Program-made: the position numbers and the translations under genes
DNA from: Clostridia bacterium
GTDB taxonomy: Bacteria > Bacillota > Clostridia > Lachnospirales > Lachnospiraceae
Direction: 5' to 3'
Assembly: GCA_910574835.1 (NCBI GenBank)
Contig: CAJTDE010000004.1
Span: forward strand, 62,001-126,000
DNA length: 64,000 bases
Shown: positions 17,501 to 57,265 of the stretch, piece by piece
Layout: every line of letters starts with the position of its first letter
How positions within the stretch are numbered: the stretch's first letter is position 1
The notes under the pieces: generated by a model
Databases searched by the model: none
Told to the model about the DNA's origin: nothing
Seen by the model: only the letters and a program-made list of their open reading frames with translations

Positions 17501-20500
17501 ATGGGCGGGAATGTCTTTGAAACGGTAAAGCAGTCCATCACCACCAGAGAAGCGGCGGAACACTATGGAATCGAGGTAAAGCGGAACGGTATGGCCTGCT
17601 GTCCCTTTCACGATGACAGGACGCCCAGCATGAAATTAGACCGCCGCTTTCACTGTTTCGGCTGCGGGGCGGACGGTGATGTGATCGACTTTGCCGCCAG
17701 ACTGTATAACCTCTCCCCCAAAGAGGCTGCGGAAAAACTGGCCCAGGATTTTGGACTGCTCTATGACAGCCAGGCGCCCCCGAAGAAAACCTATGTCCGT
17801 CAAAAATCAGAAGCGCAGAAGTTCCGGGAATCCAAGCAGCGGTGTTTCCGCGCGCTGGCAGACTACGCCCATCTGCTGCGGGGCTGGGAAACCGGCCTTG
17901 CGCCCCTGACCCCGGAGGATGAACCGCACCCCCTTTTTGTGGAGGCGCTGCACCAAAAGGACTATGTGGAGTATCTTCTGGACTTTCTGATGGAGGATGG
18001 CATCGAGGAACAAAAAACATGGATTGCAGAACACCTAACAAAAATCATGGATTTGGAAAGGAGAAACAAGGCAATGGCAGAGAAACCCACCAACCGGGAG
18101 CGATTGCGGGAAATCACCGAGGGCATTGAGCAGAACATCAAGGAACTGTTTGAGAGCGAAAAGTATATGCGCTATCTGTCGGTGATGTCCCGGTTCCACC
18201 GCTACTCGGTCAATAATACCATGCTGATCTATATGCAGAAGCCGGACGCGACCCTTGTGGCTGGCTATAACAAGTGGAAGAACCAGTTTGAGCGCCATGT
18301 GAAGAAGGGCGAGCGCGGCATCACCATCATCGCGCCCACCCCCTATAAGAAGAAAATCGAGGAACAGAAGCTGGACCCGGACACCCATGCACCGGTGCTG
18401 GACGCAAACGGCAGGGTGGTCATGGAGGAAAAAGAGGTGGAAATCCCGCTGTTCCGTCCGGTCAAGGTCTTTGATGTGAGCCAGACGGACGGAAAGCCCC
18501 TGCCCTCCCTGGCGGCGGACCTGTTCGGGAATGTCCGGCACTTTGGGGCGTTTATGGAGGCGCTGAAACGCTCCGCCCCGGTTCCCCTTGCGTTTGAGGA
18601 AATGGACGCGGATACGGACGGATATTTTTCTTCCAGCCAGCAGCGCATTGCCATCCGCCAGGGCATGAGCGAGGTGCAGACCGTTTCCGCCGCTGTCCAT
18701 GAGATCGCCCACAGCAAGCTGCACAACTTTGATGTGCCGGACAACCCGGACGCGCCCTTGTATCAGGAAGTGGAGCTGTTTGGACAGCCAGCCCTGTTCT
18801 CCAATGAGCGGATTGCCGCAGACGATCTGCCGGACGGACTGTTTTGTTATGACCTGCGCGGTTCCGACGATGACCCCGGCGCGCCGGTTGCGGTCGAGGA
18901 ACGGGTTATCGTCAACCACGCCGGTTCCGTCATAACCGCAAAGCCGCTGGAACTGCCGGAGCAAGGGTATCTCCCCCTGACCGATGAATCCGGCCTGGAC
19001 TTTAACGGCGGCGAAAAGACCGCCCAGCGGTTTTTGCAGGACCATAAAAAGGACCGGCGCACTGAGGAGGTGGAGGCCGAGAGCATCTCTTACGCGGTCT
19101 GCCAATATTTTGGGATTCAGACCGGCGCAAACAGCTTTGGGTACATTGCGAACTGGAGCCAGGGCAAGGAGCTGAAGGAACTGCGGGCCAGCTTGGAAAC
19201 CATCAACAAGACCGCCGGTACTCTGATTGCCGATATTGACCGCCATTTTCAGGAGGTCTGCAAGGAGCGCGGCATTGATCTGGAATCCGGGCCGGAGCAG
19301 GACGCCGGAAAAGAAACCATGCAGCCGGAAAACCCGCAGGCCGATACGGAGAATCAAGAGGTTTCCCCTGAACCGGAATCCTCCTGGAAAATCCCCGCCG
19401 AACTGCCGGAGCAGGACCCCTCCATGTTCCGCTATTACATTACCCAGGAATCGCTGGATGTGGGAACCTATCCTTTGATGGACGGGAAAACCATCACTGA
19501 ACTTGCCGCGCCGGTAAAGGTGGAACAGGATTCCATCACTGCCTTTGGCTGTATCGACTACCCCCAGCCGCTGACCGCCGAACAGGAACGGGAATACGCC
19601 CTTTTGCCCGCCAGCCAAAACCCGCGGGCGCTGGATTCCATCGGCCATGCCGCAGAAGCCGCCCCGCTGCCCGACGCGCCGGAGCAGGCGCTGGATGAAT
19701 ACCCGATGCCGGACCCTTTGCTGCGGGAGGACGATCTGAAAAACTGCGGCTATCAGGACGGGGACTTGCTGCCCCTCTCCAAAGAGCGGGCGCTGGAACT
19801 GTTTGAGCAGGATTTGACGGTGTACGCGGTGGTGGACGGGGGCGGCGCGGAAATGCTCTTTGACCGGGAGGAATTTGAATCCCAGCTGCCCGGTACGGTG
19901 TTCGCCCTTTCCCGCGAGGAATGGGAGGAAAGCCCAGCCTTTGACGCGCTGGTGCAGGACCGGCTGAACCGCCAGCAGGAACGGGAGCAGGCGTTTCTCT
20001 CTCATGAGGGGGACTGCTTTGCCATCTATCAGGTAAAGGATGATGACAGCCTGCGGGAAATCCGCTTTGAGGGGCTGGACTGGCTCCAATCCATCGGGCG
20101 CGAGGTGGAGCGTGAGAATTACAACCTGATCTACACCGCGCCCCTTTCCGGCAAAGATACGCCGGAGGTTGTGGCGGAGCAGCTGTTCTACCGCTTCAAC
20201 AACGAACACCCCAGGGACTATCACAGCCCCTCCATGAGCGTCAGCGACATCGTTGCCATCCGCAGGGACGGCGCGTTATCCTGTCATTACTGTGATAGCT
20301 TTGGCTTTCAGCAGATCACCGGTTTTCTTGACGCGAACCCGCTGAAAAATGCGGAAATGTCTATGGAGGACGATTACGGCATGATTGACGGGATCATCAA
20401 CAACGGCCCCAAAGAGCCGACCGTAGCCCAGCTGGAACAGCAGGCCAGAAGCGGCCAGCCGATTTCCCTGATGGATTTGGCGGCGGCTGTCCACCGGGAG

Positions 20501-20602
20501 GACGGGGACAAGCGGAAATCGGTGGTGGAACAGCTCCACCAGCAGCCGAAGCAGGAAAGCAAAAAGACAGCGCCGAAAAAGAGCGCGGAAAGGGAGCTTT
20601 GA
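17501..20602 (+). CDS. Fusion protein: CHC2 zinc finger, ArdC-like/metalloprotease, YodL and DUF4316 domains
   Basis: A 1033-residue protein joining parts often encoded separately on related ICEs. Residues 33-64 are a DnaG-type CHC2 zinc finger (CCPFHDDRTPS ... HCFGCGADGDVIDF). From residue 192 an ArdC-like N-terminal domain follows (NNTMLIYMQKPDATLVAGYN), then a metalloprotease-like motif HEIAHSKLHNF with His400, Glu401 and His404. The C-terminal third holds a YodL-like domain and DUF4316 (PTVAQLEQQARSGQPISLMD). ArdC proteins protect incoming DNA from restriction. At 18057-18076 an AAAGGAG site and in-frame ATG (MAEKPTNRE) could start a separate ArdC product. Both parts are well preserved. 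Confidence 0.8.
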   Translation: MGGNVFETVKQSITTREAAEHYGIEVKRNGMACCPFHDDRTPSMKLDRRFHCFGCGADGDVIDFAARLYNLSPKEAAEKLAQDFGLLYDSQAPPKKTYVRQKSEAQKFRESKQRCFRALADYAHLLRGWETGLAPLTPEDEPHPLFVEALHQKDYVEYLLDFLMEDGIEEQKTWIAEHLTKIMDLERRNKAMAEKPTNRERLREITEGIEQNIKELFESEKYMRYLSVMSRFHRYSVNNTMLIYMQKPDATLVAGYNKWKNQFERHVKKGERGITIIAPTPYKKKIEEQKLDPDTHAPVLDANGRVVMEEKEVEIPLFRPVKVFDVSQTDGKPLPSLAADLFGNVRHFGAFMEALKRSAPVPLAFEEMDADTDGYFSSSQQRIAIRQGMSEVQTVSAAVHEIAHSKLHNFDVPDNPDAPLYQEVELFGQPALFSNERIAADDLPDGLFCYDLRGSDDDPGAPVAVEERVIVNHAGSVITAKPLELPEQGYLPLTDESGLDFNGGEKTAQRFLQDHKKDRRTEEVEAESISYAVCQYFGIQTGANSFGYIANWSQGKELKELRASLETINKTAGTLIADIDRHFQEVCKERGIDLESGPEQDAGKETMQPENPQADTENQEVSPEPESSWKIPAELPEQDPSMFRYYITQESLDVGTYPLMDGKTITELAAPVKVEQDSITAFGCIDYPQPLTAEQEREYALLPASQNPRALDSIGHAAEAAPLPDAPEQALDEYPMPDPLLREDDLKNCGYQDGDLLPLSKERALELFEQDLTVYAVVDGGGAEMLFDREEFESQLPGTVFALSREEWEESPAFDALVQDRLNRQQEREQAFLSHEGDCFAIYQVKDDDSLREIRFEGLDWLQSIGREVERENYNLIYTAPLSGKDTPEVVAEQLFYRFNNEHPRDYHSPSMSVSDIVAIRRDGALSCHYCDSFGFQQITGFLDANPLKNAEMSMEDDYGMIDGIINNGPKEPTVAQLEQQARSGQPISLMDLAAAVHREDGDKRKSVVEQLHQQPKQESKKTAPKKSAEREL

Positions 20603-20895: not shown

Positions 20896-23800
20896 ATGGC
20901 AACCAAAGCGCAGATGTACGCACAGATGGCCGACCATGCGGCGGTGCAGCTTACTTCCAGCTGGAATGAGTGGATGCGGTTTCTCGACACAGCCTCCAGG
21001 CTTTACAAATACCCCTTCCACGACCAGCTGATGATCTACGCCCAGCGCCCGGACGCTACCGCCTGCGCGGAGTATGACCTGTGGAATGACAAGATGGGCC
21101 GCTATGTCCGGCGCGGCTCCAAGGGCATCGCCCTGGTGGACGATTCCGGGGACCGGACCCGGCTGCGGTATGTCTTTGACATCTCCGATACCGGAACCCG
21201 CCCGCACTCCCGCACACCCTGGCTCTGGAAGATGGAGGAACGGCATATAGATTCCATCTCCGCCATGCTGGAAAACCGGTATGGGGTGGGCGGCGATGAT
21301 TTAGGCGGGCAGCTGACCGAGATCGCCCGCAGGCTGGCCGGGGAATATTGGGCGGACAACGGGCGTGACTTCCTTTACATCGTTGACGATTCCTTTTTGG
21401 AGGAGTACGATGAACTTAACATCGAAGTCCAATTCAAAGCCGCCGCCACCGTCAGCATCGCCTATTCCCTGATGTCCCGCTGCGGGCTGGCCCCGGAGCA
21501 GTATTTCACCCACGAGGATTTCATGCCGGTTTTTGATTTCAACACACCGGCCACCGTTGGGGCGCTGGGAACGGCGGTCAGCCAGATCAACCAGCAGGTG
21601 CTGCGGCAGATCGGCGTAACCATTCTAAACGCGGAACGAGAGGCCAACAAAGAAAGGAGCCAGCAAAATGAACAACACCTTAACTTACATTCAGAACGGG
21701 GATTATCTGATTCCCAACCTGCAACTGACAGAACAGCCCGAAACGCCCCTGGGCAAGTACGGCAGGATGCGGAAAACCTACTTGAAGGATCACCGGCCCA
21801 TCCTTTACAACCGTCTGCTGATGAGCGAGAAGCTGTACCCGCACCTGTTGGAGATCGACCGGACCGCGAACAGCCGATTGGAGCAGCTGATGCCAAAACT
21901 GGCGCAGGCGGCGGGCGTGACCGAGGAACTGAAAGCCCGCGACATGATGCAGTGGGTGGGCCTGATGAACAGCTGCAAGGCCCAGGCGGAGGAGATTCTG
22001 CTGGCGGAACTTATCAACAGCTGACCTTAAACCTGTTTCTTTCCGAAACGGAACAGATTCAGAATATTGATGAAGCAGAGAATGTGAAAGCGTCCTCTGC
22101 TTTTTCTTTTGCCCAAAAGGACATTGACCATGTACTGCGGCTGGGCGGCAATACCGACCGTCTGCGGGAGCGCGTGACAGCTGAATTTGAAAAGCAGAAG
22201 CCGGTCCCGGAAATAGCTGCCGCCCTGCAATCCCTCTATCATGGCGGCAACGGTTTTACCACCGATACAGGCCGTATCACAGTCTGGTACGGCGAGGACG
22301 GAATCCATCTCTCTCATGGAAAATCCGCCCGATATGATAAATCCGCGCAGGTTATTTCCTGGGAGGGCGCGGCGGAACGAATTGGCGAGCTGCTGGAATC
22401 CGGTCAATTTGCTTCCAATGTGGAGCTTGCCGAGGCGGAGGGTTATGAACGCTCCCTCCTTGCCAACAAGCTCTGGAACCTGTATCACGATTTGAGCGAT
22501 GAAGCCAGAGAAGCCGGATATTTACCCAGTCTGTCAGAAATCAAGGGCAACGGGTTTCCAGAAGAATCCGCATGGCTCACTGAGCAGCTGCGTGACCCGG
22601 CTTTCCGCCAGCCCCTCACAGAAGAATACGCCGCCTTTTGGACTGCCTATACGCAAGACCGTAACTTGCTGCGTTTCCATTACCACAAGCCAAAGGAGAT
22701 TTGGGAAAACCTGAAAGACCTGTCACTGCCCCGCAAAGCCTTTTCATCTGAAATGGCAGAGGTTCCTGCGGTTAAGCAGTTTATTACGGAGGATGAGATC
22801 GGCGCGGCCCTTTCTGGCGGCAGCGGTTTTGCCGGGGGCAAAGGGCGCATTTATGCCTTTTTCCAGCAGCCCCATACCGACAAGGAAAAAACCGCGTTTC
22901 TCCGGCAGGAATACGGAACCGGCGGACGCTCCCACGCACTGTCCGGTGCAACGCACAGTGGCGAAGATCACGATGGAAAGGGCCTGCGCTACCAGAAAAA
23001 CGGCTGTGACGATGTACGCCTGACCTGGGATAAGGTCGTGAAGCTGGTTGCCGGCCTGATCCAAAAGGATCGTTATCTGACCGAAGCAGAACGGGAACAG
23101 TATGAGAAAATCCAGGCAGAAAAGGAACTGGCAGAGGCGGGCATTGTAGAATCACAGAGCCAGCCTGCTCCTGTCCATGAAACCGAAACAGAACCGCCCC
23201 AGCCCGCGCTGGAAGATGTGCTGGAACAGTACAAGCCGGTTGTGACCGCCGCCATCATGGAGGATACGGCATACCGCAACGCCTGCGGCCATACTGACCA
23301 TGAAAACGCTGTGATTGAGGGCAACGCCGCTGTGCGCCGCGCGGTTCTTGGCTCCGGTAATATGCAGCTTCTCAAACAGTATTCGGATGTGCCGGAGTTC
23401 CGCCACCGCCTGCATCAAGAGGTGATTGCCGAAACCTATCCAAAGCTCCATGAGCTTCTGCGCCCTCTCTCCCAGGACGATATTGACGAAGCCCTCTGTG
23501 CATGGAACGGCGATATGGACAGCAAACGGGCCGTAGTCCGCTATATGAAGGAGCATGGGCGGGAAAAAGATACCGCCGCATGGCTGTCCAGGGAGTACGG
23601 CGGTCCTGAACATACAAACCTGTTTATTGTCCGCGCCGGAAGCCCCGAAGAAATGGAACTGCCCTGGCCCAAGGTACAGCGCCGGATCGCCCAGCTTATC
23701 AAAGAGGACCGCTTTTTTACAGAGGCTGAACGGGAAAATCTGGACGATATAGACCCTATCGCAATCCGGGAAAATCTGGCCCAGCGCGGCATTGTAAACG

Positions 23801-26800
23801 GGCAGGTAGTGGAACCGGAAAAGCTGGACAATGACCCCTTTATTCAGCAGGTCATGGCTGATGTGGAGCAGATTGCCGCCGATGAAGCAGAACCGCGCTT
23901 TTCCGTTGTTATGACCAGCGATGCGTTTCCCGACCCGGAAGATGCGTTTGCTGTCTGGGATAATCAGACCAATGATTACTATACCGCCTCTGATGGAACG
24001 GTACGGACATTTTCAAGAGAAGAAGCTGCGGAGCAATTCCTGGCCGGGCTGGAACCACAAGAGATAAAGGCGGACCGGCAAGAAGAACCGGCACAGGAAA
24101 CAGCCGCACCCGCTGCGGAAGAACCGGAACCATTTACCCACGACCCGCTGGCATCGGCCTATGGCGTAGGGGATTTTGTTTTTCTGGAAAATACCGAGTA
24201 CCGCATCACCGATTTGCAGCGGGGCTATGTCCAGCTGAATGACCCTGCGCTGCCCTACCCCATTTACCGGACGGAAAGCAAAGAACAGTTTGAACGCGCC
24301 ATCCGGCAGGACCCGCGCAACAGCGCCATCACCGACTATCTCCCCGCCGATCTGGACCAGTTTTCCCCTGATTTGCGGGAAGTCCTGACCGGGGATGGCG
24401 GTTTACTGGATGGGTTGGCAAAGGAGGATATAGCGGTACTGCTCCGAAGCGGCGCAGGCAATCCGGCTGTTGCCCAGCATCTTTCCCAGCGGTTTTCGGG
24501 TACAGTGGAAACCATGCAGCTGGAAACCGGGGATACGGCAGATTACAGAACAACCGACAAAGGCATGGAAGTAGAGATTTTGCGGGAGGATGAAACGGTT
24601 CTGGCGGCGCTGTATGAAAGCTGGGAACCGGTTGCCGCCGCACTCCGCGCCCTCTACCAGCAGGAACTGGACGGATTCTCCCACGAACCGGCACAGCTAA
24701 AGGAACAGCCAGCAGAGAAACAGCCGGATTTGGGGAATCCTCCCGCACCGGAACCAGCGCCGCGAATGACTACCACCCCTGTCACCCGTTATCCGGGTGA
24801 ACAGAACCACCTGCCCTATGATGTGGAGATTCATACCCTGCACATAGAGAAACCGGAACCCACCCCACCCCAGCCGACAGCCGGGAACTTCCGTATCACC
24901 GACATTCACCTGGGCGAAGGAGGGCCGAAAGCAAAATTCCGGGCCAATATGGACGCAATCAATCTCCTGAAAGAATTGGAGTTTGAAAACCGGCAGGCCA
25001 CGCCGGAAGAACAGGAAACCCTTTCCCGGTATGTGGGCTGGGGCGGTCTGGCAGACGCTTTTGACGAGAGCAAGCCCGCCTGGGCCAAGGAGTTTGCGGA
25101 ACTCTACGCAACGCTGTCCCCGGAGGAATATGAAGCCGCCAAAGGGACCACCTTAAACGCCCATTACACCAGCCCTACCGTTATCCAGGCCATTTATGAA
25201 GCGGTGGGGAAAATGGGATTCCAGACCGGCAACATCCTGGAACCCTCCTGCGGCGTGGGCAATTTCTTCGGTATGCTGCCGGAGGAAATGCGGGGCAGCA
25301 AACTGTACGGCGTGGAACTGGATTCCATCACCGGACGCATCGCAAAACAGCTCTATCCAAAAGCAGACATCACCATCGCGGGCTTTCAAACCACCGACCG
25401 GCGGGATTTTTATGATTTAGCCGTAGGAAACGTGCCGTTTGGCCAGTATTCCGTCAATGACCGGGCCTATAACAAGCTGAACTTCAACATCCACAACTAC
25501 TTTTTTGCAAAATCGCTGGACCAGGTGCGTCCAGGCGGTGTCGTAGCCTTTGTCACCAGCCGCTACACGATGGATTCCAAGGATTCTACGGTGCGCCGGT
25601 ATCTGGCGCAGCGGGCGGAGCTGTTAGGCGCGATCCGTCTGCCCAACAATGCGTTTAAGGCCAATGCCGGGACAGAGGTGGTATCCGACATCATTTTCCT
25701 GCAAAAACGTGACCGCCCGATTGACATTGCCCCGGACTGGACGCAGACCGGACAGACCGAAGATGATTTTACCATCAACCGCTATTTCCTGGACCACCCG
25801 GAAATGGTGCTGGGCCGCACTGTTTCAGAAAGCACCCAATACGGAAAACAGGATTACACAGTGGCCCCCATTGAGGGATTGGAACTTTCCGACCAGCTGC
25901 ACGACGCCATAAAATATATTCGCGGGACCTATCAGGAGGCCGAACTGCCGGAGCTGGGCGAGGGGGAAGAAATTGATACTTCTATCCCCGCTGACCCTGA
26001 TGTAAAAAACTATTCCTATACCGTTGTGGACGGTGCGGTGTACTATCGGGAAAACAGCCGCATGGTGCGCCCCGACTTAAACACCACCGCCGAGGCCCGC
26101 GTAAAAGGGCTGGTGGAACTGCGGGACTGTGTGCAGAAACTCATCGCACAGCAGATGGACAGCTTTGTTTCGGATACGGCAATCCGTGAAACCCAGGCCG
26201 AATTGAACAGGCTCTATGACGCATTTTCCGCAAAGTACGGGCTGATCAATGACCGGGGGAACCGGCTGGCCTTTGCCGATGATTCCAGCTATTATCTGCT
26301 CTGTGCGCTGGAAGTCATTGACGATGACGGACATCTGAAGCAAAAGGCGGATATGTTCACCAAGCGCACCATCAAGCCCCATCAGGCCGTTACTGCGGTG
26401 GACACCGCCAGTGAAGCCCTGGCTGTTTCCATCGCGGAAAAGGCCGAGGTGGATATGGCGTACATGGCCGAACTGAGCGGCAAAACCCAGGAGGAATTGG
26501 CGCAGGAGCTGCGGGGCGTGATCTTCCGCCTGCCAGGACCACTGGCGGAGGGGGAAACGCCCCGTTATGTGACAGCGGACGAATACCTCTCCGGCAACGT
26601 GCGCCGGAAACTGCGGCAGGCACAGCGGGCGGCGGACAAAGACCCCGCCTTTTCTGTCAATGTGGAGGCACTGACCGCCGCCCAGCCAAAGGATTTGGAC
26701 GCATCGGAAATCGAGGTGCGCCTGGGCGCTACCTGGATTGACAAAGACTACATCCAGCAATTCATGTACGAAACCTTCCACACCCCGTACTATCTGCAAG

Positions 26801-29800
26801 GGAAGATTGAGGTCAAGTATGTCCCCTACACCGCCGAGTGGCAGATCACCGGCAAAAACGCCGTTGGGTACGGCGATGTAGCCGCCAATACCACCTACGG
26901 AACCGACCGGGCCAACGCCTACAAGATTCTGGAGGACAGCTTAAACCTGCGGGATGTCCGCATCTATGACACCGTTGAGGACGCGGAGGGCCGGGAGCGC
27001 CGGGTACTCAACGCCAAAGAAACCACCCTTGCCGCCCAGAAGCAGATGGCGATCCGGGAAGCCTTCCGGGACTGGATTTGGAAGGACCCCCAGCGGCGGC
27101 AGACGCTGGTGCGCCAGTACAACGAGGAAATGAACAGCATCCGCCCCCGCGAGTATGACGGGCAGCATATCCGGTTTGCGGGCATGAACCCGGAAATTAC
27201 GTTACGGGAACACCAGAAAAACGCCATCGCCCATGTGCTGTACGGCGGAAACACCCTGCTGGCCCATGAGGTGGGCGCGGGCAAGACCTTTGAAATGGTA
27301 GCCGCCGCGATGGAATCCAAGCGGCTGGGCCTGTGCCAGAAATCCCTCTTTGTGGTGCCGAACCACCTGACCGAGCAGTGGGCCTCCGAGTTTTTACGGC
27401 TCTACCCTTCCGCGAATATCCTTGTCACCACCAAAAAGGATTTTGAAAGCCACAACCGCAAGAAATTCTGCGCCAGAATCGCCACCGGGGACTATGACGC
27501 GGTGATTATCGGACACTCCCAGTTTGAGCGTATTCCCATCAGCCGGGAACGGCAGGAGCGCCTGCTGCGGGAGCAGATCAATGAGATCACCGACGGGATT
27601 GCCGAGGTGGAGGCCAGCGGCGGGGAACGCTTTACCGTCAAGCAGCTGGAACGCACCAAAAAATCGTTGGAGGCAAGGCTGGAAAAATTGCAGGCCGAGG
27701 GCCGCAAGGACGATGTGATTACCTTTGAGCAGCTGGGCGTGGACCGGCTGTTTGTGGACGAGAGCCACAATTATAAGAACCTCTTTTTATACACCAAAAT
27801 GCGGAATGTGGCGGGGCTTTCCACCACAGACGCGCAGAAATCCTCCGATATGTTTGCCAAATGCCGCTACATGGACGAGATCACCGGCAGCAGGGGCGTT
27901 GTGTTCGCCACCGGAACGCCGGTCAGCAACAGTATGACCGAACTTTATACCATCCAACGCTACCTCCAGTATGAGCGGCTCCAGGAATTGAACATGACCC
28001 ATTTCGACTGCTGGGCCAGCCGGTTCGGGGAAACAGTGACAGCCCTGGAACTGGCCCCAGAGGGGACCGGCTACCGGGCGCGGACAAGATTTTCTAAATT
28101 CTTTAACCTGCCGGAGCTGATGAACCTGTTCAAAGAGGTGGCGGACATCAAGACCGCTGACCAGCTGGACCTGCCCACCCCGGAGGTGGAATACCACAAC
28201 ATCGTAGCAAAGCCCACCGAACACCAGCAGGATATGGTGAAGGCCCTCTCCGAGCGCGCCGCCAAAGTCCATTCGGGAACCGTTGACCCATCAACCGACA
28301 ATATGCTGAAAATCACCTCGGATGGCCGCAAGCTGGGGCTGGACCAGCGCATCATCAACCCCATGCTGCCGGACGAACCCGGCACAAAAGTCAACCAGTG
28401 CGTGGACAATATCCTGCAAATCTGGCGGGACGGACAGCCGGAAAAGCTGACCCAGCTGGTGTTTTGCGATATTTCCACACCCCAGGCTGCTGGCTCCAAA
28501 AAGGTGGCTAAAACGCTGGATAACCCGATGCTTCACGCGCTGGAACAAGCAATTCCAGAGCCGGAGAAACCGCTGGCCTTTACGGTCTATGAGGACATCC
28601 GGCAGAAACTCATCGCACAGGGTATGCCCGCCAGCCAGATCGCGTTTATCCATGAGGCCAATACCGAAGTCCGCAAAAAGGAGCTGTTCTCCAAAGTCCG
28701 CTCCGGCCAGGTGCGCGTCCTGTTAGGCTCCACCCAGAAGATGGGGGCCGGGACCAACGTGCAGGATTTGCTGGTGGCACTTCACGATCTGGACTGCCCC
28801 TGGAGGCCCGGAGATCTGGCACAGCGAAAAGGGCGGATCGAGCGCCAGGGCAACCAGAACCCGCTGGTCCATGTTTACCGCTATGTGACCGAGGGGACCT
28901 TCGACGCATACCTCTGGCAGACGGTGGAGAACAAGCAGAAATTCATCTCCCAGATCATGACCTCAAAATCTCCGGTCCGCAGCTGTGACGATGTGGACGA
29001 AACCGCCCTGTCCTTTGCGGAGATCAAGGCCCTGTGTGCCGGGGACCCCCGCATCAAGGAGCGTATGGACCTGGATGTGGAGGTATCCCGCTTAAAGCTG
29101 ATGAAGGCCGACCACCAGAGCAAGCAGTACCGGCTGGAAGATCAGCTGTTAAAGCACTTCCCAGAGGAGATTGAAAAACACAAGGGCTTTATCCAGGGCT
29201 TGGAAACGGATATGGAAACCCTGGCGGCACACCCCCACCCGACAGACGGATTTACCGGCATGGAAGTCCGGGGCGATACGCTCACCGACAAAGAGAACGC
29301 CGGAGCCGCCCTTCTGGACGCCTGCAAGGAGGTTAAAGGCTCCGAGCCGGTGCAGGTCGGCAGCTACCGGGGATTTGCTATGTTTGTAACCTTTGACGCT
29401 TTTCAGAAGGAATATATGCTCCAACTGAAAGGCCGCATGACCCACCGTACCGCCCTGGGCGCGGACCCGCGCGGCAACCTGACCCGGATTGACAACGCGC
29501 TTTCCCAGATGCCCCAGCGGTTGGAAAGCGTCAAAGTCCAGCTGGATAACCTTTACCAGCAGCAGGCCGCCGCGAAGGAGGAAGTGGGCAAAGCCTTCCC
29601 CTATGAGGAGGAATTGCGGGTCAAGAACGCCCGTCTGGTGGAGCTGGATATGGAGCTGAACATGGACAGCAAGGGGCAGTCCCGTCCAGAAGCGGCGATT
29701 GCCAAGCGCGAAAGGCCCTCGGTGCTGGAAGGGCTGAAACGCCCCATCCCGCCCCGCAGCATGGAAAAGAAACCCAAACAACAGGAACAGGAGGCAAGAT

Positions 29801-29802
29801 AA
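20896..29802 (+). CDS. Giant ICE methylase-helicase (ArdC-like N-terminus, N6-methylase-like domain, SNF2-type helicase)
   Basis: A 2968-residue protein. The N-terminal ~250 residues are ArdC-like (FHDQLMIYAQRPDATACAEY). Residues ~255-380 are a Gly/Arg/Asp-rich linker encoded by the same DNA as tnpV in another frame. Repeated ICE-type modules follow. A methyltransferase-like domain has LEPSCGVGNFFGML near 1450 and NVPFGQYS near 1512. An SNF2-type helicase has Walker A HEVGAGKT near 2125, the DEAH-type box FVDESHNYKN near 2286, and a C-terminal motif QRKGRIERQGNQN near 2645. It probably remodels or protects transferred DNA. I chose the ATG at 20896 because AAAGGAGG lies ten bases upstream. Confidence 0.85.
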   Translation: MATKAQMYAQMADHAAVQLTSSWNEWMRFLDTASRLYKYPFHDQLMIYAQRPDATACAEYDLWNDKMGRYVRRGSKGIALVDDSGDRTRLRYVFDISDTGTRPHSRTPWLWKMEERHIDSISAMLENRYGVGGDDLGGQLTEIARRLAGEYWADNGRDFLYIVDDSFLEEYDELNIEVQFKAAATVSIAYSLMSRCGLAPEQYFTHEDFMPVFDFNTPATVGALGTAVSQINQQVLRQIGVTILNAEREANKERSQQNEQHLNLHSERGLSDSQPATDRTARNAPGQVRQDAENLLEGSPAHPLQPSADEREAVPAPVGDRPDREQPIGAADAKTGAGGGRDRGTESPRHDAVGGPDEQLQGPGGGDSAGGTYQQLTLNLFLSETEQIQNIDEAENVKASSAFSFAQKDIDHVLRLGGNTDRLRERVTAEFEKQKPVPEIAAALQSLYHGGNGFTTDTGRITVWYGEDGIHLSHGKSARYDKSAQVISWEGAAERIGELLESGQFASNVELAEAEGYERSLLANKLWNLYHDLSDEAREAGYLPSLSEIKGNGFPEESAWLTEQLRDPAFRQPLTEEYAAFWTAYTQDRNLLRFHYHKPKEIWENLKDLSLPRKAFSSEMAEVPAVKQFITEDEIGAALSGGSGFAGGKGRIYAFFQQPHTDKEKTAFLRQEYGTGGRSHALSGATHSGEDHDGKGLRYQKNGCDDVRLTWDKVVKLVAGLIQKDRYLTEAEREQYEKIQAEKELAEAGIVESQSQPAPVHETETEPPQPALEDVLEQYKPVVTAAIMEDTAYRNACGHTDHENAVIEGNAAVRRAVLGSGNMQLLKQYSDVPEFRHRLHQEVIAETYPKLHELLRPLSQDDIDEALCAWNGDMDSKRAVVRYMKEHGREKDTAAWLSREYGGPEHTNLFIVRAGSPEEMELPWPKVQRRIAQLIKEDRFFTEAERENLDDIDPIAIRENLAQRGIVNGQVVEPEKLDNDPFIQQVMADVEQIAADEAEPRFSVVMTSDAFPDPEDAFAVWDNQTNDYYTASDGTVRTFSREEAAEQFLAGLEPQEIKADRQEEPAQETAAPAAEEPEPFTHDPLASAYGVGDFVFLENTEYRITDLQRGYVQLNDPALPYPIYRTESKEQFERAIRQDPRNSAITDYLPADLDQFSPDLREVLTGDGGLLDGLAKEDIAVLLRSGAGNPAVAQHLSQRFSGTVETMQLETGDTADYRTTDKGMEVEILREDETVLAALYESWEPVAAALRALYQQELDGFSHEPAQLKEQPAEKQPDLGNPPAPEPAPRMTTTPVTRYPGEQNHLPYDVEIHTLHIEKPEPTPPQPTAGNFRITDIHLGEGGPKAKFRANMDAINLLKELEFENRQATPEEQETLSRYVGWGGLADAFDESKPAWAKEFAELYATLSPEEYEAAKGTTLNAHYTSPTVIQAIYEAVGKMGFQTGNILEPSCGVGNFFGMLPEEMRGSKLYGVELDSITGRIAKQLYPKADITIAGFQTTDRRDFYDLAVGNVPFGQYSVNDRAYNKLNFNIHNYFFAKSLDQVRPGGVVAFVTSRYTMDSKDSTVRRYLAQRAELLGAIRLPNNAFKANAGTEVVSDIIFLQKRDRPIDIAPDWTQTGQTEDDFTINRYFLDHPEMVLGRTVSESTQYGKQDYTVAPIEGLELSDQLHDAIKYIRGTYQEAELPELGEGEEIDTSIPADPDVKNYSYTVVDGAVYYRENSRMVRPDLNTTAEARVKGLVELRDCVQKLIAQQMDSFVSDTAIRETQAELNRLYDAFSAKYGLINDRGNRLAFADDSSYYLLCALEVIDDDGHLKQKADMFTKRTIKPHQAVTAVDTASEALAVSIAEKAEVDMAYMAELSGKTQEELAQELRGVIFRLPGPLAEGETPRYVTADEYLSGNVRRKLRQAQRAADKDPAFSVNVEALTAAQPKDLDASEIEVRLGATWIDKDYIQQFMYETFHTPYYLQGKIEVKYVPYTAEWQITGKNAVGYGDVAANTTYGTDRANAYKILEDSLNLRDVRIYDTVEDAEGRERRVLNAKETTLAAQKQMAIREAFRDWIWKDPQRRQTLVRQYNEEMNSIRPREYDGQHIRFAGMNPEITLREHQKNAIAHVLYGGNTLLAHEVGAGKTFEMVAAAMESKRLGLCQKSLFVVPNHLTEQWASEFLRLYPSANILVTTKKDFESHNRKKFCARIATGDYDAVIIGHSQFERIPISRERQERLLREQINEITDGIAEVEASGGERFTVKQLERTKKSLEARLEKLQAEGRKDDVITFEQLGVDRLFVDESHNYKNLFLYTKMRNVAGLSTTDAQKSSDMFAKCRYMDEITGSRGVVFATGTPVSNSMTELYTIQRYLQYERLQELNMTHFDCWASRFGETVTALELAPEGTGYRARTRFSKFFNLPELMNLFKEVADIKTADQLDLPTPEVEYHNIVAKPTEHQQDMVKALSERAAKVHSGTVDPSTDNMLKITSDGRKLGLDQRIINPMLPDEPGTKVNQCVDNILQIWRDGQPEKLTQLVFCDISTPQAAGSKKVAKTLDNPMLHALEQAIPEPEKPLAFTVYEDIRQKLIAQGMPASQIAFIHEANTEVRKKELFSKVRSGQVRVLLGSTQKMGAGTNVQDLLVALHDLDCPWRPGDLAQRKGRIERQGNQNPLVHVYRYVTEGTFDAYLWQTVENKQKFISQIMTSKSPVRSCDDVDETALSFAEIKALCAGDPRIKERMDLDVEVSRLKLMKADHQSKQYRLEDQLLKHFPEEIEKHKGFIQGLETDMETLAAHPHPTDGFTGMEVRGDTLTDKENAGAALLDACKEVKGSEPVQVGSYRGFAMFVTFDAFQKEYMLQLKGRMTHRTALGADPRGNLTRIDNALSQMPQRLESVKVQLDNLYQQQAAAKEEVGKAFPYEEELRVKNARLVELDMELNMDSKGQSRPEAAIAKRERPSVLEGLKRPIPPRSMEKKPKQQEQEAR
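21668..22024 (+). CDS. tnpV: TnpV-family protein encoded inside the helicase gene in the +1 frame
   Basis: A 118-residue protein (MNNTLTYIQNGDYLIPNLQL, then GKYGRMRKTYLKDHRPILYN and EIDRTANSRLEQL) clearly of the TnpV family known from Tn4451-type elements. It has its own AAAGGAG site at 21653-21659, eight bases before the ATG, and ends in TGA at 22022. The DNA also codes in the helicase frame, where it gives only low-complexity Gly/Arg/Asp/Pro-rich sequence. Third codon positions are GC-rich in the tnpV frame, as in neighbouring genes, so tnpV looks like the primary coding frame here. Function of TnpV is not established. Confidence 0.8.
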   Translation: MNNTLTYIQNGDYLIPNLQLTEQPETPLGKYGRMRKTYLKDHRPILYNRLLMSEKLYPHLLEIDRTANSRLEQLMPKLAQAAGVTEELKARDMMQWVGLMNSCKAQAEEILLAELINS

Positions 29803-29803
29803 T

Positions 29804-30610
29804 ATGAACAGCAACGAAAAGAATACGGCCCTTTATGAGAAGATGGCCGCTGAACAGGATACCTTCCGGGATTGGCTGAAAAGCCAGTCCCCGGAGGAGG
29901 TCCTAAACCATGCCTATGAGTACACCGTCCGGGAGGACATTGTGATGGCGATGGAGGAACTGGAACTTTCCGATAACCAGGCACAGGCGCTTCTGGATTC
30001 CCCCTCCCCGCTGGCTGATGTGTACCGCCATTTTGAAAAGCTGGAAACCGGCTATATGGATGTGATCCGGGACAGCATTGAGGAACGGGCAAATGAGATG
30101 CACAGGGCAAAAGAGGAACAGAGAGCCGTCCCGATCTATCCCCACTCCGCCGCCTATGCGTCCGAGCATGGGGAGATGGCGCAGTACCGCGCCTCCCTGC
30201 AAGCCAGTCTTGCCTGCAAAGAAGCCATTGAGCAGGCCATCAGCGCCCACTATGGGGATAACCGCTTGAATACCGAGGCCGCTGTCAAAGAAGTGCTGGA
30301 ACAGTTCGGGCCGGAGCGTATGCAGGTTATCCTTGCCAATACGGTGCTGAAAAAGGAGCATGACGGGCGTATCTCCCGCGATAACAAAGCCTGGGCGAAA
30401 ACAATCCCCATGCCGGAGGATGGCGGCGATCCCCGCCACAGCTATGCCCTGGTGGTGGATAAGGTCAACCCCGGCCTGACCGACCTGTTCTTGAAGCAGG
30501 CGCGGAAAGTCCTTCAAGCCCCGGAGAAAGGCTCCGTCCTGGAAAAACTCAAACAGGAGCCGCCGGAACGCAGACCCGCCGCCCCTAAGAAACGGGAACC
30601 GGAACGATGA
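29804..30610 (+). CDS. DUF3848/DUF3849-domain ICE protein
   Basis: A 268-residue protein with an N-terminal DUF3848 domain (LYEKMAAEQDTFRDWLKSQS, then YEYTVREDIVMAMEELELSD) and a C-terminal DUF3849 domain (VPIYPHSAAYASEHGEMAQY). Both domains are confined to Clostridia ICEs and plasmids and adjoin the helicase and MobC genes. Function unknown. The start lies one base after the helicase stop and the end overlaps mobC by four bases. Confidence 0.85.
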   Translation: MNSNEKNTALYEKMAAEQDTFRDWLKSQSPEEVLNHAYEYTVREDIVMAMEELELSDNQAQALLDSPSPLADVYRHFEKLETGYMDVIRDSIEERANEMHRAKEEQRAVPIYPHSAAYASEHGEMAQYRASLQASLACKEAIEQAISAHYGDNRLNTEAAVKEVLEQFGPERMQVILANTVLKKEHDGRISRDNKAWAKTIPMPEDGGDPRHSYALVVDKVNPGLTDLFLKQARKVLQAPEKGSVLEKLKQEPPERRPAAPKKREPER

Positions 30611-31530: not shown

Positions 31531-32949
31531 ATGGCAACCACACGCATCATGCCGCTGCACATTGGCAAAGGCCGCACCGAAAGTCAGGCGGTCAGTGACA
31601 TTATCGACTATGTATCCAACCCGCAAAAGACAGATAACGGCAGGCTCGTCACCGGCTTTGCGTGTGACAGCCGGGTAGCCGATGCCGAGTTTCTGTTGGC
31701 AAAACGGGAGTACATTTCCACCACTGGCCGGGTACGCGGCGCGGACGATGTACTTGCCTACCATGTCCGGCAATCCTTTGTCCCCGGCGAGATTACCCCG
31801 GAAGAAGCCAACCGGCTGGGCGTGGAGTTTGCAAAGCGGTTCACCAAGGGCAATCATGCCTTTGTGGTCTGCACCCATATCGACAAATCCCATATCCATA
31901 ACCACATCATCTGGAACGCAGTCAATGTGAACTGTGACCGGAAATTCCGAAACTTCTGGGGCAGCACCCGCGCGGTCCGGCGGCTGAATGATACCATCTG
32001 CGTTGAGAATGGCTATTCCATTGTAGAGGACCCAAAACCGCATGGAAAAAGCTACAACAAATGGCTGGGGGATCAGGCGAAGCCCTCCCACCGGGAACAG
32101 CTCCGCATGATGATTGACCAGGCATTAGAACAGAAACCGGCAGACTTTGACGGGCTGTTAAAACTGCTTACAGAAATGGGCTGTGAAGTGTCGCGCCGGG
32201 GACAGGCAATCCGGCTCAAAGCCCCCGGCTGGAAGAATGTTGCCCGCATGGATGAAAAACTGGGCGAGGGATATAGTGAAGATGAAATACGGGCGGTCCT
32301 TGCCGGAGAAAAGCAGCATACGCCCCGCAGAAAAGACGCGGTTTCAACTCCCACTCTCAAGGTCAATCTTCTGGTGGATATTCAGGCAAAATTGCAGGCC
32401 GGAAAAGGCGCTGGCTACGCGCGCTGGGCAAAGGTATTCAATCTGAAACAGATGGCGCAGACAATGAACTATCTCACTGAGCATGGCCTGCTGGAATACG
32501 CAGTCTTGGAAGAAAAAGCGGCTGCTGCTACCGCCCGTCATAATGAGCTGTCGGCGCAGATCAAGGCGGCGGAAAACCGCATGGCGGAGATTGCCACACT
32601 GCGGACCCACATCATCAATTATGTGAAAACCCGCGAGGTCTATGCGGCCTACCGCAAGGCGGGATATTCCAAGAAATTTTTAGCGGAACATGAAGCGGAT
32701 ATTTTGCTCCACAAGGCGGCAAAGCAGGCATTTGACGATTTGGGTATCAAGAAGCTGCCCACCGTCAAGAGCTTGCAGGCCGAGTACGCAACATTGTTGG
32801 AAGAAAAGAAAAAAGACTATGCCGAGTACCGGCAATCCCGCGAGGAAATGCGGGAACTGCTGGCCGCAAAAGCCAACGTAGACCGGCTGATGGGATACGG
32901 GGAGGAACGCCAGAATGACCGGGAAAAGGAACAGGGGCAGGATCGCTGA
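31531..32949 (+). CDS. ICE relaxase/mobilization nuclease (MOBP type)
   Basis: A 472-residue relaxase. The N-terminal domain carries the three-histidine metal site in HIDKSHIHNHIIWN (about residues 116-129), and the probable catalytic tyrosine lies near the N-terminus (DIIDYVSN, about residue 30). It nicks the ICE at oriT and pilots the strand through the VirB4-driven channel. The C-terminal half is helical and coiled-coil. It is preceded by GGGAGG. The gene is intact and followed by a cluster of hairpins. It differs in family from the IME relaxase at the left edge. Confidence 0.9.
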   Translation: MATTRIMPLHIGKGRTESQAVSDIIDYVSNPQKTDNGRLVTGFACDSRVADAEFLLAKREYISTTGRVRGADDVLAYHVRQSFVPGEITPEEANRLGVEFAKRFTKGNHAFVVCTHIDKSHIHNHIIWNAVNVNCDRKFRNFWGSTRAVRRLNDTICVENGYSIVEDPKPHGKSYNKWLGDQAKPSHREQLRMMIDQALEQKPADFDGLLKLLTEMGCEVSRRGQAIRLKAPGWKNVARMDEKLGEGYSEDEIRAVLAGEKQHTPRRKDAVSTPTLKVNLLVDIQAKLQAGKGAGYARWAKVFNLKQMAQTMNYLTEHGLLEYAVLEEKAAAATARHNELSAQIKAAENRMAEIATLRTHIINYVKTREVYAAYRKAGYSKKFLAEHEADILLHKAAKQAFDDLGIKKLPTVKSLQAEYATLLEEKKKDYAEYRQSREEMRELLAAKANVDRLMGYGEERQNDREKEQGQDR

Positions 32950-39145: not shown

Positions 39146-39280
39146 CAGAAAGCCTCGCGGCCTGCCGTATCATTGCGCGGCGGTGGATTCTCCGGTAAGA
39201 TATTCATGCAGGGTAAAACCTGCGGAGCCATTTTGCCGCACGAGGTATGGATTCTGAGATGGTCGGGAGGTAAAAGAAAG

Positions 39281-40945
39281 ATGATGGATACAACATACAA
39301 CGTGGGCATCTACTGCCGGTTAAGCAACGACGATGAACGTGACGGGGAATCGGTCAGCATTGAGAACCAGAAGCTGCTGCTTCAAAACTATGTCAGGCAG
39401 CGCGGCTGGAATGAGGTCGATGTCTATATCGACGACGGATACTCCGGCACGAACTTCAACCGCCCAGGCGTCAGGCGGTTAATCGAGGACGCAAAGGCAA
39501 AGCGGATCAATGTGATTCTGGTGAAGGACCTTTCCCGTTTTGGCCGCAACTACATCGAATTTGGGCAATATACGGATTACCTGTTCCCTTCCCTTGGCTG
39601 CCGGTTTATCGCACTGAACAACGGCATTGACACCATGAGCGACAACGGAAGCACCGATGTCATGTGCTTTTTGAACTTATTTAATGAATTTTACAGCCGG
39701 GACACCAGCAAGAAGGTCAAGGCGGTCAAAAGAGCCTGTGCCGAAAACGGAAAATTCATGGGAACCTACCCCGCCTATGGCTACCGGCGCGACCCGCTGG
39801 ATAAGCATCATCTGGTGATTGACGAGGAAACCGCGCCGGTTGTGAGCCGTATCTTTGAAATGCGGGCATCAGGCATGGGATTTCACGCTATCGCGGTGGC
39901 GCTCAATGAAGAAGGGATTCAGCCGCCCGGTGTGCTGTACTACCAGCGAAAGGGCCAGAGCGACCCCCGCAGGGTCAACCACAAATGGGCTGACCAGACG
40001 GTTAAAAACATGGTCCGCAACGAGGTCTACATCGGGAACATGGTACAGGGCAAAAGCGGCACACTCTCCTATAAATCCCGCAAGCTCGTCAATAAATCGG
40101 AGGACGAGTGGATTCGGGTGGAGGGGACCCACGAAGCTATTATTTCGCGGGAATTGTGGGACACCGTAGCCAGTATCGGCAAAAAGAAGGTGCGGAAAAG
40201 CGCCCCGTCCGATGGCTGCAAGAGCATCTTCACCGGCCTTGTGTACTGTGCCGACTGCGGTTTCAAAATGCGGAACCATATCGAAAAGTTCACCTATAAG
40301 GATGGCAGGCCGGGACGGTACAGCTCTTTCATCTGCGGCAACTACTCCCGCAGCGGAAGGGGCGCGTGTACCATCCACACCATCTATGAAACGGTGCTGA
40401 CCCAGCTGGTATTGGAGGACATCCGGGAAAAGGCCCGCTTTGCGGAATATGACCCGGACCGGCTGATGGGCGAGATTCTCCGGCTGAAGGAGAAGGAATC
40501 CCACACCCGGCTTTTCTCCTATGAGCAGGAATTAAAATCCTCCTTAGCCCGTATTTCCGATTTGGAGCGCCTGATGCAGAATCTCTACGAGGACAAATGC
40601 ACCGGCTCCATCCCCCAGACGGTATTTCAGACACTGATGCAGAAATACGAAGCGGAACGGGCAGAAAAGGCGGAGGCAGTCCCGGAACTGGAAAGGAAAG
40701 TCCGGGCGCACCTGGAAAACCAGGTGGATACCGACCGCTGGCTGGAAATTATCCGGCGCTATACCGAAATCTCGGAACTGGACGAAACCATTCTCTTTGA
40801 ACTGGTAGACCGGATCGAGGTTGGCGATACCCAGAAGGTCAACGGGCAGCGGATTTGTGAGGTCAAGGTGTACTACCGCTATGTCGGGAATGTGGACGGG
40901 GCGCTGGCACAGGAAAGGGGGCGGGATTATGGCGAAGCAATATAA
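39281..40945 (+). CDS. Large serine recombinase (ICE integrase 1)
   Basis: A 554-residue recombinase with the resolvase domain (VGIYCRLSNDDERDGESVSI; nucleophile Ser15), VKDLSRFGRNYIEFG helix, recombinase domain, zinc ribbon (YCADCGFKM ... CGNYSRSGRGAC) near residues 315-365, and a coiled coil. It should excise and integrate the ICE together with the next gene. ATG 39281 is preceded by GGGAGG. The 3' end overlaps the next recombinase by 17 bases. Confidence 0.9.
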   Translation: MMDTTYNVGIYCRLSNDDERDGESVSIENQKLLLQNYVRQRGWNEVDVYIDDGYSGTNFNRPGVRRLIEDAKAKRINVILVKDLSRFGRNYIEFGQYTDYLFPSLGCRFIALNNGIDTMSDNGSTDVMCFLNLFNEFYSRDTSKKVKAVKRACAENGKFMGTYPAYGYRRDPLDKHHLVIDEETAPVVSRIFEMRASGMGFHAIAVALNEEGIQPPGVLYYQRKGQSDPRRVNHKWADQTVKNMVRNEVYIGNMVQGKSGTLSYKSRKLVNKSEDEWIRVEGTHEAIISRELWDTVASIGKKKVRKSAPSDGCKSIFTGLVYCADCGFKMRNHIEKFTYKDGRPGRYSSFICGNYSRSGRGACTIHTIYETVLTQLVLEDIREKARFAEYDPDRLMGEILRLKEKESHTRLFSYEQELKSSLARISDLERLMQNLYEDKCTGSIPQTVFQTLMQKYEAERAEKAEAVPELERKVRAHLENQVDTDRWLEIIRRYTEISELDETILFELVDRIEVGDTQKVNGQRICEVKVYYRYVGNVDGALAQERGRDYGEAI

Positions 40946-42566
40946 AGTCGGTATCTATTGCCGCCTGAGTGTGGATGACGCCTCCAATTCCGCAAAAGCG
41001 AAGGGCTATATTCCCAGCGATGAATCGGTGAGCATTGAGAACCAATATGAAATCCTCTCCAAATTCGTCATGCTCAACGGCTGGATCGAGGTCAAGACCT
41101 ATCAGGACGATGGGTACAGCGGGGGCAACTTCCAGCGACCCGGATTTTTGGAAATGCTGGAGGACGCAAGGCATGGCCTGATTAACCTGATTCTGGTAAA
41201 GGACCTTTCCCGTTTAGGCAGGGATTTTGTGGAGGTGGGCCGTTATACGGACGTCATTTTCCCTTCCCTCGGATGCCGGTTCGTGTCGGTTCTGGACTGC
41301 CTGGACAGCGAGGGGGACAACACCGATATGCTGCACTTCCGCAGTCTGATGAATGACTACCATCTCAAGGACCTGTCCAGCAAGGTCAAGTCGGTGCTTC
41401 ATGCAAAGAAGAAAAGTGGCCAGTATCTTGCTGCCTACGCTCCCTACGGATACCGCAAGAGCGAGGAGGACAGACACAAACTGGTCATTGACGGGGAATC
41501 CGCCGCTGTTGTGCGGCAGATATTCCAGATGCGTCAGTCCGGCATGGCCTATGGGAAAATCGCTGCCGCCCTGAATGAGAAAGGGATTCTCCCTCCCCGC
41601 TGGTACTGGGCGGTCCATTACGGAAATGGCAGCTGCAAGTATTCCCGGCTGTGGGCTTACGCAACCGTCCGAAGCCTTCTGAACGATGATATTTATGTCG
41701 GTACGCTCACACAGAACTGCACCGGTTCCCGTTCCTATAAAGACAAGACCATGATAAGGAAACCGGAATCGGAATGGATTTCCCATGAGGGTGCGCACGA
41801 GGCAATTATCGGGCCGGAGCTGTGGGAGGCTGTCCAGAAAATCAATCAGGCGGCGAAACAGATTTCCGCTAACAATACGCCGCCCCAAGCATCTCTGTTT
41901 ACCGGAAAGCTGGTTTGTGCGGACTGCGGGCATCCTCTGGTTGCCGCCCGCGAAACACAGCGCCGGAAAAACGGAACTGTCAAGCACTATACTTCTTATT
42001 TTTGCTCCCGGTTTGCCACTACCGGACACAGCATCTGCTCCTGGCACCGGATTTTTGAGATCAGCTTGAAAAACTTGGTGCTGAGTGAAATCCGGGCGCA
42101 TGGCAAAGCGGTTGCAGCCGATGAAGCCGCTGTACTGGATAAGCTGAAACAGCACATCCAATCCGCAAGCGCCGCGCAACAAGAGGACTGCCGACAGGAA
42201 ATCAGCCGTTTGCGGCGGCGTTTGGAGGAGCTGGAACAGATCACCGCAAAACTTTATGAAGATAAGGTAAGCGGGGCAATCAGCGGCGATTCCTTCTCGG
42301 TTCTGATTCAAAAGAACGAGCAGGAACGCATCCAGAAATCGGAACGCCTGGACAGTCTGTTAGCCGGGGAACGAAAAGCCCAGCAGGACATCGCCAATAT
42401 CCACCAGTGGGCCGGAACCATCCGGCAGTATCTGGACTTGCAGGAACTGAACCGGGAAATCATTGAGGAACTGATTGACCGCATTGAAGTTGGAGAACGA
42501 ACCGTCATAGACGGTCAAAGACACCAGGACATTAAAATTTACTACCGCTTTGTTGGGCTGGTGTGA
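40929..42566 (+). CDS. Large serine recombinase (ICE integrase 2)
   Basis: A 545-residue recombinase with the same architecture as its upstream neighbour: VGIYCRLSVDD with nucleophile Ser14, LVKDLSRLGRDFVEVG, a zinc ribbon (CADCGHPLVAARETQ ... CSRFATTGHSICSW) and a C-terminal coiled coil. Both proteins have intact catalytic residues, so both may be active, perhaps as a required pair. It ends about 130 bases before the prophage recombinase that the ICE interrupts, so it marks the right end of the ICE. Confidence 0.9.
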   Translation: MAKQYKVGIYCRLSVDDASNSAKAKGYIPSDESVSIENQYEILSKFVMLNGWIEVKTYQDDGYSGGNFQRPGFLEMLEDARHGLINLILVKDLSRLGRDFVEVGRYTDVIFPSLGCRFVSVLDCLDSEGDNTDMLHFRSLMNDYHLKDLSSKVKSVLHAKKKSGQYLAAYAPYGYRKSEEDRHKLVIDGESAAVVRQIFQMRQSGMAYGKIAAALNEKGILPPRWYWAVHYGNGSCKYSRLWAYATVRSLLNDDIYVGTLTQNCTGSRSYKDKTMIRKPESEWISHEGAHEAIIGPELWEAVQKINQAAKQISANNTPPQASLFTGKLVCADCGHPLVAARETQRRKNGTVKHYTSYFCSRFATTGHSICSWHRIFEISLKNLVLSEIRAHGKAVAADEAAVLDKLKQHIQSASAAQQEDCRQEISRLRRRLEELEQITAKLYEDKVSGAISGDSFSVLIQKNEQERIQKSERLDSLLAGERKAQQDIANIHQWAGTIRQYLDLQELNREIIEELIDRIEVGERTVIDGQRHQDIKIYYRFVGLV

Positions 42567-42712
42567 TCGGGCAAAAAAAGCGCCTGACCGCATCAGCAGC
42601 CAGACGGAAACATTCTGTAACAGCAGCGATATTTGATTGTTGCACACTGATTTGTCGAATTGGAGAGAAATTAGCAGTTTACCCCTCCCCAATGACTCGT
42701 GTTCTTTACGAT
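42567..42712. mobile_element. Right end of the ICE and junction with the prophage (attR region)
   Basis: About 130 bases after integrase 2 the plus-strand sequence becomes, on the minus strand, a serine-recombinase coding sequence that stops matching after MPLKNIV. The break is therefore at about 42695-42706. The last nine residues plus stop of the truncated gene (TSHWGGVNC) come from the ICE end. The exact core dinucleotide cannot be fixed without the left end. Confidence 0.6.
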
Positions 42713-43174: not shown

Positions 43175-43175
43175 A

Positions 43176-45250: not shown

Positions 45251-45376
45251 ACCAACGGCATGGTATGTACCGCCGGGGAATCCCCCGGCCGACGCGCTGC
45301 TCAGACCCCAACAGCCCTCCGGCAGCATATAGCAAGACAAAAAAATAAGGCATCCCTGCCCTCAACAAAAACGCCC

Positions 45377-57161: not shown

Positions 57162-57186
57162 AACCCTCACCCGCCTTTCTCCAACG

Positions 57187-57209
57187 AAAAAAGGAGCCAC
57201 CCCGGCTCC
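57187..57209 (-). terminator. Terminator between the AbiJ-like gene and the tape measure gene
   Basis: GGAGCC and GGCTCC pair around a five-base loop and, on the minus strand, are followed by TTTTTT. It closes the AbiJ-like transcript, so the tape measure gene needs read-through or its own promoter. Confidence 0.7.
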
Positions 57210-57265
57210 CATAAAAATGCAACAAAAAAGCGTCTGCCATTTCCGACAAACGCCTATGTAAGTTA

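Follow-up and report, generated by a model that had tools for sequence, protein, structure and literature searches.

An open tnpV frame inside a helicase gene

The window (the whole 64,000-nucleotide stretch of Lachnospiraceae DNA that was analyzed) contains a region that looks like a conjugative element. A domain search of the window finds genes for TrbL, a TraG-type ATPase, a CHAP-domain protein, a topoisomerase, and a CHC2/ArdcN primase-like protein, together with a helicase, a DUF3848/3849 gene, a relaxase, and large serine recombinases. The relevant features are:

17501..20602, forward strand: upstream primase gene with matches to CHC2 zinc finger, ArdcN, LPD28, DarA_C, and YodL domains, which we take to be LtrC-like (our own naming, not from the domain search)
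20896..29802, forward strand: giant gene for an SNF2-type helicase of 2,968 aa, with tnpV inside it; open frame with SNF2-rel_dom, ResIII, and Helicase_C matches
20896..21666, forward strand: N-terminal part of the helicase (residues 1-257), the tnpV-free query; predicted to be folded to about residue 260
21652..21659, forward strand: GAAAGGAG, the putative ribosome-binding site of tnpV at -16 to -9, from its near-invariance in 56 distinct contexts and from SD-core counts
21667..22023, forward strand: tnpV DNA read in the helicase frame (residues 258-376), a predicted disordered linker; pLDDT below 50 at 264-382, no stops in 124 of 124 nested copies
21668..22024, forward strand: tnpV (118 aa) in helicase frame +1; PF14198 match at E = 1.2e-44, family dN/dS 0.22-0.29
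29804..30610, forward strand: DUF3848/DUF3849 gene directly downstream of the helicase, from domain matches
31531..32949, forward strand: relaxase (MobA/VirD2-like) of the element, from the domain search
39173..42566, forward strand: two overlapping large serine recombinase ORFs, both with Resolvase and Recombinase domains

Two other arrangements of reading frames occur further along. Across 39173-43372 three ORFs overlap end-to-start, namely the two large serine recombinase ORFs and one of 269 aa without a Pfam match, and long ORFs (>500 and >800 aa) are opposed on both strands at 45260-46975 and 54231-57212.

Translation of 21668-22024 gives 118 residues and a stop codon. Residues 6-116 match the TnpV family (PF14198) over the full profile (1-111 of 111) with a score of 151.3 bits, well above the curated cut-off of 27. 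The surrounding ORF of 2,968 codons is unbroken across tnpV and belongs to the SNF2-type helicases, with scores above the cut-offs for SNF2-rel_dom (41.3 bits, cut-off 24.9) and Helicase_C (25.5 bits, cut-off 23.5). Because tnpV starts 772 nucleotides into this ORF, it occupies frame +1. A preliminary description of this DNA had placed a complete TnpV of this length wholly within the helicase ORF at a +1 offset, and the translation, the family match, and the open frame all bear this out. It had also given tnpV its own ribosome-binding site, and GAAAGGAG is indeed found 8 bases before the ATG and is nearly invariant among nested copies. The same description called the helicase N-terminus ArdC-like, a label that was not confirmed: no Pfam ArdC domain is detected in the helicase at E <= 0.01, and the sole basis for the name is a match of some 60 residues (34%) with the upstream LtrC-like protein plus the names of plasmid homologues.

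Read in the helicase frame, the overlap has a composition high in G, D, E, R, A, and P. Synonymous resampling of the helicase codons over this region left the +1 frame without any stop in 150 of 5,000 runs and with at most one stop, at any position, in 1,095 of 5,000. The length of the tnpV ORF is by itself hardly beyond chance; its family membership and conservation are. Since the length of the nested ORF is unsurprising, the case for the gene rests entirely on comparison.

Occurrence of the overlap in related helicases

Helicase residues 1-257, which end ahead of the overlap, were used as the census query because selecting only TnpV-bearing copies was to be avoided. All four full-length matches in the window's own genome (40-100% identical) have a nested tnpV, and 9 of 16 genomes of the same genus have a query match. 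A scan of genome contigs retained the best 80 of 574 confirmed loci. The first pass covered 99 loci, including these best 80 of 574, and TnpV is present in 97 of them, every one in frame +1, with 96 of the 97 lying within an open helicase frame as counted from the start of the match. Widening the census with divergent relatives (a class search in which 56 of 196 genomes had a match) and plasmid records gave 144 distinct loci, again including loci from the best 80 of 574. Four of these ended too early, which leaves 140 that are usable.

TnpV lies in frame +1 of a helicase that is open over it in 136 of the 140 usable loci. One further locus (L261) has a helicase stop within the overlap, and three (L078, L288, and L309) have no TnpV; the helicase frame of L078 breaks after about 209 codons. 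On a recount, the TnpV ORF extends for at least 95 codons from its ATG in 134 of the 137 TnpV-bearing loci, the exceptions being L029, which has an internal stop, L282, where the ORF is cut short, and L294, where it has 92 codons. Both frames are in order over the overlap in 133 of the 140. In 10 of the 137 TnpV-bearing loci the helicase frame ends fewer than 800 codons past the N-terminal match. These are L261 and nine others that are open over tnpV (L018, L036, L039, L067, L260, L264, L308, L282, and L294), so some helicases in the census are not whole. Two records fetched later, from Enterococcus and Listeria plasmids, both have the overlap. The proposal that dual coding is conserved across the helicase family is upheld by these counts: 136 of 140 loci, TnpV being at least 95 codons long in 133 of these, and both later records.

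An intact linker with a stop in the tnpV frame had been named in advance as the pattern that would argue against conservation. It occurs in L029; 133 of the 140 loci keep both frames. L029, on the minus strand of a same-genus genome, has a helicase that is open in the available stretch and a tnpV frame with an internal stop and no clear start; it is an apparent natural loss of tnpV with the linker retained. L288 and L309, which belong to the same family, are open helicases that have a short linker and lack tnpV. Together with the broken or short frames of L029, L282, and L294, they indicate that tnpV is dispensable in some such genes.

The reverse case is seen in L261 / L160, where one helicase stop falls within the overlap and tnpV is intact. 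L203 has two tnpV copies in succession: the first is nested, six helicase-frame stops fall over the second, and the helicase frame ends one codon past the first.

Carriers of the overlap span several classes of Bacillota. They include Lachnospiraceae, Oscillospiraceae, Holdemania, Collinsella, Cohnella, Monoglobus, Anaerococcus, Virgibacillus, Ruminococcus, Selenomonas, Aerococcus, Listeria, and Enterococcus; L309, which lacks tnpV, is another Enterococcus record. TnpV is barely recognizable in the most divergent carriers (E from 1e-13 to 1e-3). Among 23 divergent copies that were picked for inspection from those with a TnpV match, none of the 23 has a helicase stop over tnpV, and the chosen start is an ATG in 22, with an SD-like stretch upstream in most. 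For the remaining copy (L305), no start codon was located by the automated scan, either at the match or upstream of it. None of ten annotated overlap records lists both a helicase spanning the overlap and TnpV in the gene table of the collection, which is incomplete, and the Aerococcus record among them lists neither.

Start signals of the nested gene

Among 56 distinct contexts, the ATG never varies and GAAAGGAG, at -16 to -9, hardly does, while the spacer between them is variable. Of 81 distinct nested starts, 79 have an SD core ahead of them, versus 242 of 3,599 other ATG triplets. The helicase codons that overlie this region are also unusual. Within the 21 nucleotides before the tnpV start, arginine is encoded by AGG in 79 of 89 cases and by AGA in the other 10, versus an AGG share of 9.3% elsewhere in the helicase, a choice that fits a putative ribosome-binding site. 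These comparisons show that tnpV has its own conserved predicted ribosome-binding site and ATG.

Selection on the two reading frames

TnpV matches outside the first set (n = 153, not deduplicated) comprise 54 nested, 96 stand-alone, and 3 helicase-associated copies, and the pooled, deduplicated set contains 124 nested and 84 stand-alone genes. Helicase-frame stops are absent from all 124 nested copies, 43 of which were labeled nested partly for their open frame. Stand-alone copies have a mean of 8.3 stops in the corresponding frame; one of the 84 is stop-free and 83 have stops. Because nested copies are richer in GC (0.54 versus 0.38), tests within each sequence were also used. Permuting synonymous tnpV codons predicts that 11.3 of the 124 nested copies would be stop-free. 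In nested genes, tnpV codons that end in a pyrimidine never end in T when the next codon begins with AA, AG, or GA (0 of 1,522), versus 1,189 of 3,601 (33%) elsewhere. The corresponding counts in stand-alone genes are 698 of 1,301 before AA, AG, or GA and 1,974 of 3,145 before other codons. The 81 nested copies that were not picked for openness give the same result (0 of 1,045 versus 739 of 2,533). From zero stops and zero stop-making T we conclude that tnpV is read through in the helicase frame. The counts show selection for the helicase frame to stay stop-free across the overlap.

The tnpV frame was compared in 27 independent sister pairs that are 2-12% divergent. Differences occur at tnpV codon positions 1, 2, and 3 with frequencies of.035,.027, and.092. 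Position 3 is the fastest in the helicase-only N-terminal part (.151), and it reaches.210 in the downstream part. Position 2 of tnpV coincides with position 3 of the helicase, which means that the position that is normally freest in the helicase is now the slowest in the overlap. The dN/dS ratio of nested tnpV, obtained from a simplified site-class count and not from OLGenie, is 0.218 (0.172-0.270) for 32 pairs and 0.289 (0.245-0.331) for 27 pairs. Stand-alone tnpV gives 0.157 (6 pairs) and 0.234 (16 pairs). This rate test per frame, which the preliminary description had called for, excludes neutral change in the tnpV frame (dN/dS 0.22-0.29). It shows that TnpV is under evident purifying selection beyond what the host frame imposes.

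Nature of the helicase linker

Constraint on the helicase residues over tnpV is weak or absent. For nested copies, NN/NS is 1.27 (0.94-1.78) and 1.35 (1.12-1.62) and SN/SS is 0.66 (0.45-1.08) and 0.70 (0.52-0.97); the stand-alone control, which has few sites, gives 0.88 and 1.24 for NN/NS and 2.65 and 1.26 for SN/SS. In distant pairs the helicase-frame identity is.296, versus.271 expected from TnpV and stop avoidance, and the composition of this frame is also near that expectation.

AlphaFold2 predicts a folded helicase N-terminus followed by segments with pLDDT below 50 at residues 264-382 and 394-403, and the first of these coincides with overlap residues 258-376. TnpV, in an AlphaFold-type prediction, is well folded with a mean pLDDT of 89. 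One frame thus appears to hold a fold, and the other is probably a linker of nearly any stop-free sequence. Because the helicase side is kept open and its residues are little constrained, the linker would be largely a shadow of TnpV rather than an equal partner. The earlier proposal that one stretch of DNA supplies both a protein and an unstructured linker holds insofar as both frames are selected and the linker is predicted to be disordered, but the residues of that linker are nearly free.

Origin of the arrangement

All nested copies in the census share an identical site and frame, which indicates a single origin within this sample. The TnpV tree is less simple. One group with a support of 81 contains 47 of 62 stand-alone representatives, and the rest fall among nested copies. 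There are 9 changes of state among 133 representatives and 7 among 113, and a tree that places every nested row in one clade is marginally rejected (p-AU 0.036). This mixing may reflect repeated escape of tnpV from helicase genes. Since the alignment is short, the tree is unrooted, and some branches are long, we regard the escape reading only as a lead. In one locus (L232), an intact stand-alone tnpV lies beside a helicase N-terminus with three stops, which may represent a stage of such an escape.

The same intermixing and p-AU value would also be expected if tnpV had become nested more than once from stand-alone genes. This course of events is distinctly unlikely, however, since the nested copies of the census share one site and frame, since escape better explains the mixing, and since the tnpV of L232 adjoins a helicase N-terminus that has stops.

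Interpretation and alternatives

Very probably, tnpV is a real, independently started +1 gene nested in the ICE helicase gene, and translation of the helicase continues across it to give a single polypeptide. As is characteristic of an overlapping gene pair, selection is detected on both frames, although on the host frame it takes the form of stop avoidance with weak or absent residue constraint. Both proteins would be produced from one mRNA. Internal initiation at the GAAAGGAG-ATG would give TnpV, and ribosomes coming from the helicase start would read through, making the linker between the N-terminal domain and the later modules. The arrangement is presumably old, with one origin within the helicase family. 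The weakest step concerns function: TnpV might work with the helicase in processing or protecting element DNA during transfer or replication, a role that we propose tentatively.

Could only one of the two frames be expressed? If only TnpV were made, the long helicase ORF would have arisen by coincidence or through a fusion that has decayed, and the functional helicase would start downstream. A Selenomonas plasmid on which the listed SNF2-related protein begins after TnpV is consistent with this, as are Monoglobus and Cohnella records that list TnpV and no helicase CDS over it in an incomplete gene table. Nevertheless, the stop-making T is never used even though T and C are synonymous for TnpV at those positions, the helicase N-terminal part evolves like coding DNA, and the frame continues open over tnpV in 136 of 140 loci, all of which makes exclusive expression of TnpV very improbable. 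Exclusive expression of the helicase, with tnpV as a shadow ORF in GC-rich linker DNA, is scarcely credible. The frequency with which the +1 frame is nearly stop-free by chance in the resampling (at most one stop in 1,095 runs, none in 150) and the two helicases that manage without tnpV would permit it. A PF14198 match at 1.2e-44, stand-alone homologues in 87 distinct loci, a dN/dS of 0.22-0.29, the slow third position of the helicase, and a nearly invariant SD sequence all argue against it.

A separate question is whether TnpV is an excisionase-like factor of the serine recombinases of the element that is merely located in the helicase gene. The excisionase fold of lambda Xis is a winged helix. 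The predicted TnpV model gave no usable fold match, which speaks neither for nor against such a fold. Homology with lambda Xis is the ground on which a passage in PMC3158075 postulates that TnpV of Tn4451 acts in excision. The window element carries large serine recombinases, tnpV overlaps the end of a recombinase gene in Campylobacter coli pCOS502, and it begins a few bases after a recombinase-like ORF in Pusillibacter faecalis pMM59_01. Within the short flanks examined, a serine recombinase occurs at 15 of the 87 distinct stand-alone loci and at 1 of the 48 nested loci. Ten scanned neighbors of stand-alone tnpV belong to mixed families (RepA_N, Mob_Pre, NikA-like, D12 methyltransferase, HTH, SNF2, and DUF6664) or gave nothing, and no recombinase was found among these ten. 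The excisionase reading is unlikely. The preliminary description had called TnpV transposition-associated, an attribution that comes only from its name: none of the ten scanned neighbors is a recombinase, and 15 of the 87 stand-alone loci have a serine recombinase in the flank. A helicase-side role for TnpV seems somewhat more likely than one in recombination, because tnpV is nested in a helicase whose neighbors act in DNA processing.

A broader reading is possible, though less than probable. The overlap would be ancestral to the whole helicase family, stand-alone tnpV genes (including those of the Tn4451 type) would be escapees, TnpV would be a partner of the helicase, and many linkers would be shadows. 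If this is true, then TnpV is not a transposition protein but a helicase partner kept in step by a common mRNA, and many of the disordered linkers found in SNF2 proteins annotated on Bacillota mobile elements are frame shadows of an unannotated gene. The overlap bears on annotation in any case, as the helicase and TnpV are not listed together in the ten annotated records with their incomplete gene table.

Comparison with known systems

The protein belongs to the TnpV family of Tn4451 and its relatives, since it matches the same profile, and the aligned stand-alone relatives are 32-56% identical to the TnpV of the window. It differs in that its gene lies wholly within another gene, and excerpts from the TnpV literature make no mention of such nesting. 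A passage in PMC9815147 describes Streptococcus suis elements in which inserts in snf2 genes carry a TnpV transposase gene, and one in PMC11913394 places tnpV next to tet(O) in Roseburia. No description of tnpV nested in a helicase was found in the open-access literature that was searched.

The helicase itself may resemble the DarB-type helicase/methylases of phages. It is likewise very large, it has a weak match to the Eco57I methylase family that falls below the cut-off of that family, and it lies within two genes of a protein with a DarA_C domain.

Overlap between genes is in itself a known arrangement. According to a passage in PMC9927249, bacteria have few well-established long nested genes. 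The conserved tnpV/helicase overlap makes a good test case for the joint evolution of two frames because it is kept over a wide bacterial range, is represented by many sequences, and comes with an inherent control for each frame in the form of stand-alone homologues. A close formal parallel is comS of Bacillus subtilis, which is located within srfA in another frame and is described in PMC12350097 as a small same-strand gene in a giant gene with both products used. Like comS, tnpV is a small, same-strand, out-of-frame gene inside a giant one, and we judge the proteins of the two systems to be unrelated. They differ in that the host stretch of tnpV is a predicted disordered linker and in that the tnpV/helicase pair occurs across several bacterial classes, on mobile elements.
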